Positions 1,296 to 34,603 of a stretch of 38,289 bases of DNA are shown here, in pieces; within the stretch, counting starts at the first letter, position 1; each line of letters opens with the position of its first letter. A program made the translations under genes and the position numbers. The notes beneath the pieces were generated by a model. It was not told where the DNA came from, searched no databases, and saw only the letters and a list, made by a program, of their open reading frames with translations. The stretch comes from Candidatus Daviesbacteria bacterium. Its GTDB lineage: Bacteria; Patescibacteriota; Microgenomatia; Daviesbacterales; UBA10151. The stretch spans positions 70,358 to 108,646 of the forward strand of contig JAUYKM010000009.1 of NCBI GenBank assembly GCA_030699125.1. Reading direction: 5' to 3'.

Positions 1296-2539
1296 ACAAA
1301 AAGAATATTTTTCTTTGGACTTTGTATGATTTTGCAAATTCCATCTCCACAATTGTCTTCTTCCTATATTTTTCTCAATGGTTGGTTATCGATAATGGGG
1401 TTGCGGATATTTGGTATAACCTGCTTTTTACAGGAGGAACAGCACTTCTTTTAATAACTGCTCCAGTGGTGGGAATGATTGCTGATAAGGTTGGTGTTAG
1501 GATGCCATTTTTAACAACAGTAACATTTCTACAATTTATTGCTCTTCTAGGAGTAAGTTTATTAGTTTTATTTGCTCCGGTTAGCTCAGGAGTAATATTT
1601 TTGGCTGCACTATTATTTTTATTTGCCAATTATTTTTATCAATTTCAGTTTGTTTTTTATAATGCTTTCTTAAAAGAATTAGCGCCTGAAAAATTACGTG
1701 GGTTTGTATCAGGATTAGGACAGTCGTTTAATTGGTTGGGTCAAATTTCAGGACTTTTAATAACCTTGCCTTTGGCAACAGGGGCAATAGTACTTATTGG
1801 CTCACCAGGGAGAGTGCAAACGTTTTTACCAGCTACAATAGTATTTTTTGCCCTATCCTTACCAATGATACTTTTTTTTAAAGAAAGCACCAAATTTAAA
1901 AAAGTTAACATTAATTTAATGAATGAATATAAGGATTATGTTCATAATTTCATTGTACTGTGTAAAAGACCTGGGTTGGGTAGGTTTTTATTAGGTTACT
2001 TTTTCTTCAATGATGCCATGATAACAACTGTTAATAACTTCCCGATTTATTTGCAGCAGGTATTTAAAGTTACAGATACAACTAAGTCCATACTTTTGAT
2101 GGGAATTCTTGTTACCTCAGCTGTTGGTGCTTTTGTATCTGGTTGGATATCAGATAAGATTGGTCTAAAAAAGAGTCTCTTATTTATACTAGGAAGTTGG
2201 ATAGTTATTTTCCCTCTGCTCGCATCAACGACTAATTTTACTTATTTTACTATTGTTTTAGTAGCCTTAGGTTTTGTATTTGGTTCCACCTGGACTGTTG
2301 CCAGGGCTGTAATGGTATATCTCTCCCCGCCTGAGAAGCTTAACCACGCCTTTAGTTACTATACAATGTTTGAGCGTTTCTCAACATTAGTTGGTCCATT
2401 ATCTTGGGGTTTGATTACGCTGGTTTTAGTTGATTTAGGTAGTTTACGTTATCAAATAGCGATGGCTTCAATGGCGATATTTATTTTAATAGGACTTTTT
2501 ATTGTTAAAGATATTCCTGAAAGAGTTTCTAGTAGGTAA
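1292..2539 (+). CDS. MFS transporter, UMF1/Atg22-like
   Basis: About 12 TM segments, N-terminal LYDFANS motif typical of the UMF1 family; overlaps the serS stop. Confidence 0.8.
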   Translation: MNKKNIFLWTLYDFANSISTIVFFLYFSQWLVIDNGVADIWYNLLFTGGTALLLITAPVVGMIADKVGVRMPFLTTVTFLQFIALLGVSLLVLFAPVSSGVIFLAALLFLFANYFYQFQFVFYNAFLKELAPEKLRGFVSGLGQSFNWLGQISGLLITLPLATGAIVLIGSPGRVQTFLPATIVFFALSLPMILFFKESTKFKKVNINLMNEYKDYVHNFIVLCKRPGLGRFLLGYFFFNDAMITTVNNFPIYLQQVFKVTDTTKSILLMGILVTSAVGAFVSGWISDKIGLKKSLLFILGSWIVIFPLLASTTNFTYFTIVLVALGFVFGSTWTVARAVMVYLSPPEKLNHAFSYYTMFERFSTLVGPLSWGLITLVLVDLGSLRYQIAMASMAIFILIGLFIVKDIPERVSSR

Positions 2540-2543
2540 ATTT

Positions 2544-2813
2544 ATGGCTATAACTCAAGAGTTAGTAGAAGAAATTAATAAAATTAAGGAAAGAAACAGA
2601 CGGGTGGAAACAGAAAAGGCTTGGGAAACATTCTGGACCAGGAGAATAGTAGTGGCGGTTCTTACCTATTTGGTTATTTCTTCATTCTTTTTATTTGCTG
2701 GAGTGTCTCAGCCTTTTACTGGTGCCATAGTTCCTGCTTTAGCTTTTGTCCTATCCACAGCATCAGTGCCAATTTTTAAAAGCTTTTGGCTGAGATATAT
2801 TAACAAAAAGTAA
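2544..2813 (+). CDS. Small membrane protein, two predicted TM segments
   Basis: Internal ATG (MAITQELVEE) preferred to the ORF start at 2502 that overlaps the MFS gene; hydrophobic C-terminal half. Confidence 0.6.
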   Translation: MAITQELVEEINKIKERNRRVETEKAWETFWTRRIVVAVLTYLVISSFFLFAGVSQPFTGAIVPALAFVLSTASVPIFKSFWLRYINKK

Positions 2814-2825
2814 ATTCCATATTTT

Positions 2826-2939
2826 TGTCATTCCTGCGAATGTCCTTCGATCCCGAGGTCCTCAGGACCGAGGGGCAGGAATCTAATTAAAAACCAGACT
2901 AAAATGTTTAATTGGATCCCGACATTCGTCGGGATGACA
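2826..2939. repeat. Paired-hairpin intergenic repeat (REP/BIME-like), copy A
   Basis: TGTCATTCCTGCG...GCAGGAATCT, AT-rich spacer, then ATCCCGAC-ATTC-GTCGGGAT-GACA; same architecture as 32876-32946; lies between convergent genes. Confidence 0.85.
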
Positions 2940-2946
2940 GGCAATA

Positions 2947-4056
2947 TTATTGTCCTTGTTGTTGTCTTTGGCGGATTAGATCTGCTGCAGAGGTGGCTTG
3001 TGGAGTTCCTCCTGAAGTAGAAAGTTCTCCAAAACTTCCCGAACCGGTGGCCTCTGGCCGTGGAGTGGAGGTGGGAGCAACAGTTGGTGCAACCGTTGGC
3101 CTGGGTGCTGTGGTGGCTGGTACACTGGTAGTAGATTCTTCAGAGGGAGTTTGTCCAATCCCTAAAATAAAATAAGCTGATGCTCCGGCTACCACCAAGA
3201 GCAATCCTATCCCTACTCCGATAATCCACATTGGTATTCCTTTATGCTCTTCTGAAGGAATATTAGGTACATCCGGGGTGGAAGAACCTGGAGGAACAAT
3301 CAAATTTTCCGGAACTGTAACATTAGCCTGAGGATTGGCCGAAGTTTCCAGAGGGAGAGGATTATTGCCAATTAAATGGGATAAATCTGTGGGAGCAGAT
3401 TCAGAGGAAAGAATATTTGGACCCATCTCAGATTGATCAGGTTGAGGAGCTGCTGGCATTTCACCTTGAGGCATTTCAGATGATAGTGGGGGAGGGTTTA
3501 GAGGAGGTTCACCTCCTTCGTCAATAGAAGGAGTTTGAGCAGGGGACCCCCACGGATTATCAAGAGGAGATGTCCCGCCTGTTTGATTGAAAGCCTGATC
3601 GGCGGGTTGTTCCAAATTAGTGAGTTGATTTGGCCAGGTTTGTTGAGGCTCATTTCCTCCCATTGGAGGTGGCGGAGCTGGCAGTAACTGATCAGGCGGT
3701 TGGCTGGATGGTGTAGGTTCCATCTGGGGAGTTAGTGGCTGCTGATTTAGATCTGGATAATCGATTGCGGGAGTAGGTTCAGGAGGAAATGTTGACTGAG
3801 GAGCCGATGGTACAAAGGGATTTGCTTCCGGCATGGGTGGTGGAGAAGGTGGGAAGTTAGCAGTTTGCTGATTAAGAGGATCAACCGGTGGTTGAGTAGA
3901 TCCCTGGTCAACGTTACTTGTTGGCAAGGTCTGATCCACTGGAGCTGGTTGCCAGGCACTTTGATCACTTCCTGAGGGAGGTGGATACATATCCTGTGGA
4001 GTGGGAGGGGTTGGTGTTGGATTATTTGGCGAGTTTGGGTTATTAGGATTATCCAT
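2947..4056 (-). CDS. Pro/Gln/Asn-rich protein with C-proximal TM segment and Thr/Pro-rich tail
   Basis: About 270 residues of P/Q/N-rich low complexity, then MWIIGVGIGLLLVVAGASAYFILGI, then a short STP-rich tail. Confidence 0.7.
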   Translation of the reverse strand: MDNPNNPNSPNNPTPTPPTPQDMYPPPSGSDQSAWQPAPVDQTLPTSNVDQGSTQPPVDPLNQQTANFPPSPPPMPEANPFVPSAPQSTFPPEPTPAIDYPDLNQQPLTPQMEPTPSSQPPDQLLPAPPPPMGGNEPQQTWPNQLTNLEQPADQAFNQTGGTSPLDNPWGSPAQTPSIDEGGEPPLNPPPLSSEMPQGEMPAAPQPDQSEMGPNILSSESAPTDLSHLIGNNPLPLETSANPQANVTVPENLIVPPGSSTPDVPNIPSEEHKGIPMWIIGVGIGLLLVVAGASAYFILGIGQTPSEESTTSVPATTAPRPTVAPTVAPTSTPRPEATGSGSFGELSTSGGTPQATSAADLIRQRQQQGQ

Positions 4057-34160: not shown

Positions 34161-34600
34161 TGCTTTAATATGGGAAGAACATTACCGAAAAAATAAATTT
34201 GATGTAAACAAAATAAGCCCGTTATAAACAGTCTTGATTTTTTCGTAAACTCAAAAAATAAGCCCCCTATAAGCTAGGTGAGTTTCCTCACGCAAGGCAT
34301 GAAGCCTGCTTTCACTTATAGAGAGCTCGAATACATTCTTATAATACCACTTTTTAAGAAATATCAGTATATACCAAATAAATAACCTCAAGGTGATATA
34401 TTTAGCCCTCCTTGACAAGTATTATATCGATAACTAACTATACCCTAGCCCTTAGTCCCTACCCATACTTCCGAAACTTTAGAACGAGGGTATCTCAAAA
34501 CATGACTTTTTGCTAAAATAAGCCATGAATGTTTACCCTGAGCATAGTCGAAGTGCTATAGTACTGAGTGTCATCGAAGTATGCTTTAATATGGGAAGAA
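34161..34600. repeat. 19-bp direct repeats bracketing a ~400-bp non-coding segment
   Basis: TGCTTTAATATGGGAAGAA exact at 34161-34179 and 34582-34600. Confidence 0.85.
34253..34334 (-). ncRNA. Candidate structured RNA: three-way junction with 14-bp closing stem and U-tract
   Basis: Minus strand GAGCTCTCTATAAG pairs with CTTATAGGGGGCTT (including three G-U), internal AGGC-TTCAT-GCCT and GTGAG-GAAA-CTCAC, followed by ATTTTTT; TGgTATTAT extended -10 at 34341-34349. Confidence 0.5.
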
Positions 34601-34603
34601 AAT

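Follow-up and report, generated by a model that had tools for sequence, protein, structure and literature searches.

The window analysed here, a stretch of 38,289 nucleotides from Candidatus Daviesbacteria (contig JAUYKM010000009.1), contains on its minus strand (34253-34349) an RNA that, according to its sequence and fold, forms a compact three-way junction and possesses a putative promoter of its own. The extended -10 element, the long stem, both enclosed hairpins and the terminal AUUUUUU on which the original prediction was based were all confirmed in the sequence (Table 1), with 14/14 positions of P1 paired, and a genome search together with a covariance model found a single copy of the RNA in this genome. 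Directly beyond it, the plus strand (34168-34227) translates to IWEEHYRKNKFDVNKISPL-stop, which is the tail of a group-A DUF3800 protein (cf. FYHSKNKFDVTKISPL); the DUF3800 gene is thus reduced to its last 15 or so codons, and the family search found no match to PF12686 elsewhere in the genome. The partial copy of the 3' arm and tail that had been noticed at 34204-34229 is real and turned out to be the end of this lost gene, i.e., the DUF3800 stop-codon end on the other strand, duplicated at a distance of about 45 nt from the complete RNA, though it may instead be the gene end of a second, truncated unit. A 22-nt direct repeat flanks both the remnant and the RNA and is possibly the scar of an insertion or a recombination.

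Table 1. Features of the RNA locus, with positions counted from the first letter of the window
Feature	Position	Strand	Basis or remark
ncRNA, predicted transcript	34253..34334	-	5' leader of about 6 nt, three-way junction, U-tract; fold, homologues, covariation
Extended -10, TGgTATTAT	34341..34349	-	sequence; promoter position kept across homologues
Possible weak -35, CTGATA, spacer of 15 nt	34362..34367	-	pattern match only
P1 5' arm, GAGCUCUCUAUAAG	34315..34328	-	fold; double changes at all 14 pairs in 27 sequences
P1 3' arm, CUUAUAGGGGGCUU	34260..34273	-	in homologues, its complement encodes the final KISPL-stop of DUF3800
J1/2, UGAAA, conserved junction strand	34310..34314	-	alignments
P2 hairpin, GCAGGC-UUCAU-GCCUUGC	34292..34309	-	most conserved element; alignment and covariation
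P3 hairpin, GUGAG-GAAA-CUCAC	34278..34291	-	pairing kept, sequence variable, GNRA-type loop common
J3/1, CUAG, conserved junction strand	34274..34277	-	alignments; common to DUF3800-IX
Terminator tail, AUUUUUU, 3' of P1	34253..34259	-	sequence; T-rich in all 19 cellular copies
DUF3800 gene remnant, last codons, HYRKNKFDVNKISPL-stop	34180..34227	+	translation compared with intact homologues ending, e.g., in FYHSKNKFDVTKISPL-stop
22-nt direct repeat, copy 1	34161..34182		borders the remnant on its left
22-nt direct repeat, copy 2	34582..34603		95% identical to copy 1

The fold of the window RNA reaches -34.1 kcal/mol, as compared to -21.8 +/- 3.4 kcal/mol for shuffled sequences (z = -3.6; 1/200 shuffles equally good). 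By itself, this energy is modest evidence, and the RNA is considered real because homologues exist. A nucleotide search of 94 relatives yielded five clear copies at 83-93% identity, a first covariance model (six sequences, run on 385 genomes of the class) ten copies, and a second one (twelve sequences, run on a phylum sample) further copies, such that 19 copies in total are found by the covariance models in the sampled Patescibacteria genomes. A covariance-model search of relatives had been named as a check on the prediction, and it did recover homologues with compensatory pairing in P1. Double-sided changes were found at 7 pairs among the first 6 genomic copies and at 17 pairs among 12 sequences; with 27 sequences, 20 of the 25 pairs covary and 94.5% of the cells are paired, and neither any of 500 shuffles nor any slid register was as good. 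Homologues and covariation rule out a chance hairpin. An RNA on the opposite strand is ruled out as well, since the model assigns 103 bits to the minus strand and 12 bits to its reverse complement, in agreement with the orientation originally deduced from the letters. One further candidate (L162/G725, 29.7 bits) was put aside as doubtful.

Across the copies, P2 (GGCUUCAUGCC), J1/2 (UGAAA or UGAUA) and J3/1 (CUAG) form a conserved core, whereas in P1 and P3 the sequence drifts and the pairing is retained (the copy in G094 has three mismatches in P1). A P1 whose sequence is free to change, combined with a constant core and constant pairing, is compatible with protein binding. Concerning transcription, a sigma70-like site with at least 8 of 12 matches is situated 8-18 nt 5' of P1 in 15/19 cellular copies, as opposed to 11% of positions drawn at random from these loci, and under a stricter threshold (at least 9 matches) the proportions are 68% and 2.8%. 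In every one of the 19 cellular copies, T occupies 4 to 7 of the 8 positions following P1, and the U-tract is found only on the strand of the RNA. Together with the compensatory pairs, these promoters and U-tracts of the homologues support the earlier view of a promoter-driven, self-terminated noncoding RNA. Only a few nucleotides make up the 5' leader, and coding sequence of DUF3800 forms the 3' flank; with the promoter that close to P1 and the end T-rich, there is no space for a guide on either side.

Adjacent to the homologues, where tnpB had been suspected, the conserved neighbour is a DUF3800 gene (PF12686; Pfam E-values of 1e-7 to 5e-9). It is arranged tail-to-tail with the RNA in 12/19 cellular copies, mostly with an overlap at its stop codon, which amounts to about 15 nt in intact loci, where the complement of the P1 3' arm encodes the protein's C-terminus KISPL-stop. 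In the class, all eight DUF3800 proteins at least 55% identical to that of G036 have the RNA (one of these loci, in G067, is cut by the contig end), and so do four more intact close genes of the phylum sample (12/12 overall) as well as a thirteenth close gene (G694), which is broken. The association is asymmetric: among the 12 intact genes and 19 cellular RNAs, a close DUF3800 gene was never seen without the RNA, whereas the RNA often occurs without the gene. We therefore regard it as very probable, judging from these sequence comparisons, that the window RNA belongs, as the noncoding partner of a convergent DUF3800 gene, to a two-part module and was orphaned here by decay of the gene.

In more distant DUF3800 groups, other convergent structured RNAs are situated at the same place, and junction-like folds with a UAG strand are also formed by the 3' flanks of the DUF3800 genes in groups B, C and D. 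Two group-D flanks (L049 and L050) exhibit a different convergent hairpin RNA (P1 of L050: CCUCAUGUG...CACAUGAGG), apparently a further RNA type. A group-B DUF3800 gene in L164 (G556), which possesses an RNA of its own type, is immediately preceded by an orphan group-A RNA. In four loci, restriction-modification genes (type ISP or Eco57I) adjoin the DUF3800 gene or the RNA; in G443 and G057 they neighbour DUF3800, and in G036 a DUF3800-IX RNA.

No intact gene accompanies seven of the 19 cellular RNAs (G000, G094, G390, G407, G467-C36, G556-C21 and G694), four of them with clear gene remnants. In G407 (L157), a type ISP restriction-modification gene is split (165-1556 / 1771-3072) by the RNA plus a DUF3800 tail; on sequence grounds, the module most plausibly inserted there and subsequently decayed. 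The orphan RNAs could merely be decaying remnants, as the P1 mismatches in G094 illustrate.

Concerning the protein, which comprises about 260 residues as compared to about 75 nt of RNA, an AF2 model of the G036 representative (pLDDT 88.7) has RNase HII (1uax) as its best structural match (E 1.9e-4, probability 1.0) and also exhibits weak matches to Argonautes, i.e., a distant PIWI similarity, while a sequence search found no solved structure. The partner is accordingly predicted from this model to have an RNase H fold, in agreement with the fold stated for DUF3800 in the literature (PMC10910872), and 19 diverse members all share the residues D14, E15 and D204. DUF3800 also occurs as an accessory in some Cas12a2, VI-F and V-A2 CRISPR loci. 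The PADLOC model DUF3800_VII matches the protein at 2.1e-31. We take this model to represent an effector class of type VII retrons, and in these retrons an RNA-containing complex restrains the effector. Inspection of the ORFs within about 1.5 kb of the RNAs, made without a family search, revealed no reverse transcriptase.

As to named families, the statement that none could be recognised holds insofar as Rfam gives no match anywhere in the window at gathering level and, at E-values up to 10, no relevant match around the RNA or for its first homologues; the RNA does nevertheless belong to a recognisable kind, that of the DUF3800-associated RNAs. Like these in the broad sense, it combines linkage to PF12686 (12/12 close relatives; in the window itself only as a remnant) with a covarying structure. 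Most similar is DUF3800-IX (RF02968), which likewise consists of a long P1, J1/2 (CGAA), P2, P3, J3/1 ((C)UAG), P1' and a T-rich sequence, and whose junction signatures GAA (J1/2) and UAG (J3/1) are present in the window family. A convergent DUF3800 gene accompanies it in four of five inspected loci (one of them frameshifted), the fifth being an orphan. Despite this general similarity, P2 and the P1 sequence differ, the partner proteins fall into different DUF3800 groups, and the gathering cut-off of DUF3800-IX (36.8 bits) is not reached by the window RNA or its first homologues. Conversely, the covariance model of the window family does not recognise the two above-cut-off DUF3800-IX copies, although it gives weak positional matches beside some other DUF3800 genes. 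DUF3800-IX itself is found above threshold in G036 (L070, beside the frameshifted gene) and as an orphan in G220 (L071, 5262-5329, minus strand), and beside the gene of G057 as a sub-threshold match. DUF3800-VIII (RF03075) shares the three-way junction with J1/2 CGAAg and J3/1 GUAG, but the two are not recognised as one family by sequence. The junction layout held in common with DUF3800-IX and DUF3800-VIII marks the window RNA as a further type: on comparative grounds, it is a DUF3800-associated RNA set apart from those in Rfam, and a published motif absent from Rfam may overlap with it. A hammerhead-like or other ribozyme was also considered and rejected, as no Rfam ribozyme matches at the RNA, and to our knowledge its core is unlike the ribozyme families (hammerhead and others).

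Copies of the RNA also exist in viruses. Pattern scans followed by the covariance model identified nine virus records with the RNA and without DUF3800, which represent eight distinct sequences, two of the records being overlapping pieces of one phage. The first of these scans had given 51 matches, mostly due to chance, the two overlapping records being real; among candidates picked by the core pattern only, P1 pairing is bimodal, with a real group and a chance group. Covariation in the eight distinct viral RNAs extends to 20 of 25 pairs, with 94.4% of the cells paired, and by this pattern the viral copies are evidently under selection as RNA. PF12686 has no match in the nine records; these are all fragments, so that a DUF3800 gene could lie outside them. 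A scan of the viral collection with a few peptide patterns did not find the group-A protein, a DNA search found no close relatives in isolate phages or plasmids, and in plasmids only one distant DUF3800 was found.

In three related phages (L150, L173 and L175), the RNA follows directly 3' of the major capsid gene in a gap of about 90 nt and shows compensatory changes in P1. This gap contains no obvious promoter or terminator, so the RNA would there belong to an operon transcript. Another copy is carried by L118, a phage that also possesses terminase and DnaB-type genes. In L148, a DUF3800-VIII-like RNA (1362-1449; 29.7 bits, which is below gathering, and E 0.0019 for the stretch) follows immediately after the RNA; upstream there is a TATAAT box and downstream a hairpin resembling a terminator. 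From its sequence, this second RNA is probably a DUF3800-VIII RNA. In the record L176, the RNA is preceded at a short distance by another strong hairpin (AUGAGGGGG...CCCCCUCAU), which may be a further RNA of this kind, and in L201 (G746) two int-alpA RNAs (RF02996, above cut-off; 271-344 and 2198-2263) and a tRNA surround it.

The following mechanism might account for this distribution. By means of its invariant core (P2 loop, J1/2 UGAAA, J3/1 CUAG), the folded RNA would bind the DUF3800 nuclease and, once bound, would keep it inactive in the manner of an RNA antitoxin; protein and RNA would together constitute a mobile, probably anti-phage module, and phage RNAs without the gene would act as decoys that titrate DUF3800 or keep the module off. 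A gene never found without the RNA, and an RNA often found without the gene, are expected of an antidote and not of a pure cofactor, albeit from small numbers, and this asymmetry, the RNase H fold and the restriction-modification neighbours together favour a nuclease-restraining RNA and a phage decoy. We give the overall explanation (two-part module, orphan in the window, RNA inhibitor, phage decoy) an even chance. That the RNA holds DUF3800 inactive in a mobile module and is copied alone by phages as a decoy falls slightly short of that, binding, inhibition and titration being the steps that we infer. More tentative still is the fullest form, in which the nuclease is an anti-phage one and the solo RNAs of unrelated phages, one of them beside a second type of DUF3800 RNA, serve as anti-defence decoys.

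The nearest known parallels are type III toxin-antitoxin systems, in which a structured RNA (ToxI) likewise accompanies a nuclease gene. There are, nevertheless, fundamental differences: the RNA of type III loci consists of tandem repeats upstream of the toxin on a shared transcript, whereas in the window family it is single, convergent and provided with its own promoter, and the convergent overlap of about 15 nt, not being the classical type III layout, speaks against inhibition and decoy. Type III toxins have the ToxN fold, instead of which the DUF3800 partner has the predicted RNase H fold. Two precedents for the phage side are pseudo-ToxI, a stand-alone RNA mimic by which a phage escapes a type III system (PMC3475682), and the Racr RNA anti-CRISPRs, where viruses carry solitary copies of an RNA used by the host system (PMC10651486); Racr mimics a CRISPR repeat, whereas the viral copies of the window family are DUF3800-associated RNAs.

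The main rival of the inhibitor reading remains an RNA that acts as activating cofactor or scaffold of a DUF3800 ribonucleoprotein nuclease, its phage copies sequestering the protein or having been co-opted. Tight linkage of gene and RNA, the strongly conserved core and the RNase H fold with its distant PIWI similarity would all suit such a role, for which RAGATH-18, a motif named before its partner was known, offers a precedent, having later been identified as the IS607 TnpB scaffold (PMC11061315). We nonetheless consider it rather unlikely, because no guide-like variable segment adjoins the RNA, it is less expected that a pure cofactor would repeatedly outlast its gene in intact form, and the solo phage copies would still require a decoy role. 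The comparison with omega-RNA and the RAGATH-18 reRNA extends to a compact structured RNA linked to an RNase H-fold nuclease gene; the window RNA differs by the missing guide segment, the opposite orientation and the different protein family. The origin initially proposed, a right-end omega-RNA scaffold left behind by a lost TnpB/IS605 element, would explain a compact structured RNA beside a decayed gene, and a lost gene does lie nearby. It is DUF3800, however, and not TnpB, its homologues run opposite to the RNA, no guide-like stretch is present, and neither a TnpB-type domain over the cut-off in this genome nor an Rfam omega-RNA match was found, so that hardly any weight is left for this origin.

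Two further readings do without an inhibitor. The RNA, or its DNA, might primarily be a phage element for processing or regulation of the capsid operon, of which the DUF3800 modules recognise or have captured a copy. This is suggested by the three related phages that retain it behind the capsid gene with compensatory P1 changes, where it could act in cis, e.g., in mRNA processing. Other virus copies are situated elsewhere, including the promoter-preceded tandem with a DUF3800-VIII RNA, and the cellular copies come with a promoter and a U-tract of their own, which makes the phage-element origin improbable. Slightly less probable again is that the RNA affects the DUF3800 mRNA purely in cis, either as a convergent antisense RNA or by providing a shared terminator. 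The overlap at the stop codon of intact loci would fit it; a U-tract confined to the strand of the RNA and a most conserved part that is the core outside the overlap would not, and antisense action is unlikely because phage and orphan copies occur without such an mRNA.

The motifs themselves are known, and the few openly available papers found on DUF3800 assign no function to the DUF3800-associated RNAs. The pair described here is unusually compact, shows a clear asymmetry as to which half is dispensable and occurs naturally as RNA-only copies in phages, such that inhibition versus activation, as well as blocking by phages, can be tested directly. If the decoy reading is true, these copies would join pseudo-ToxI and Racr as a further class of RNA mimics in phages.
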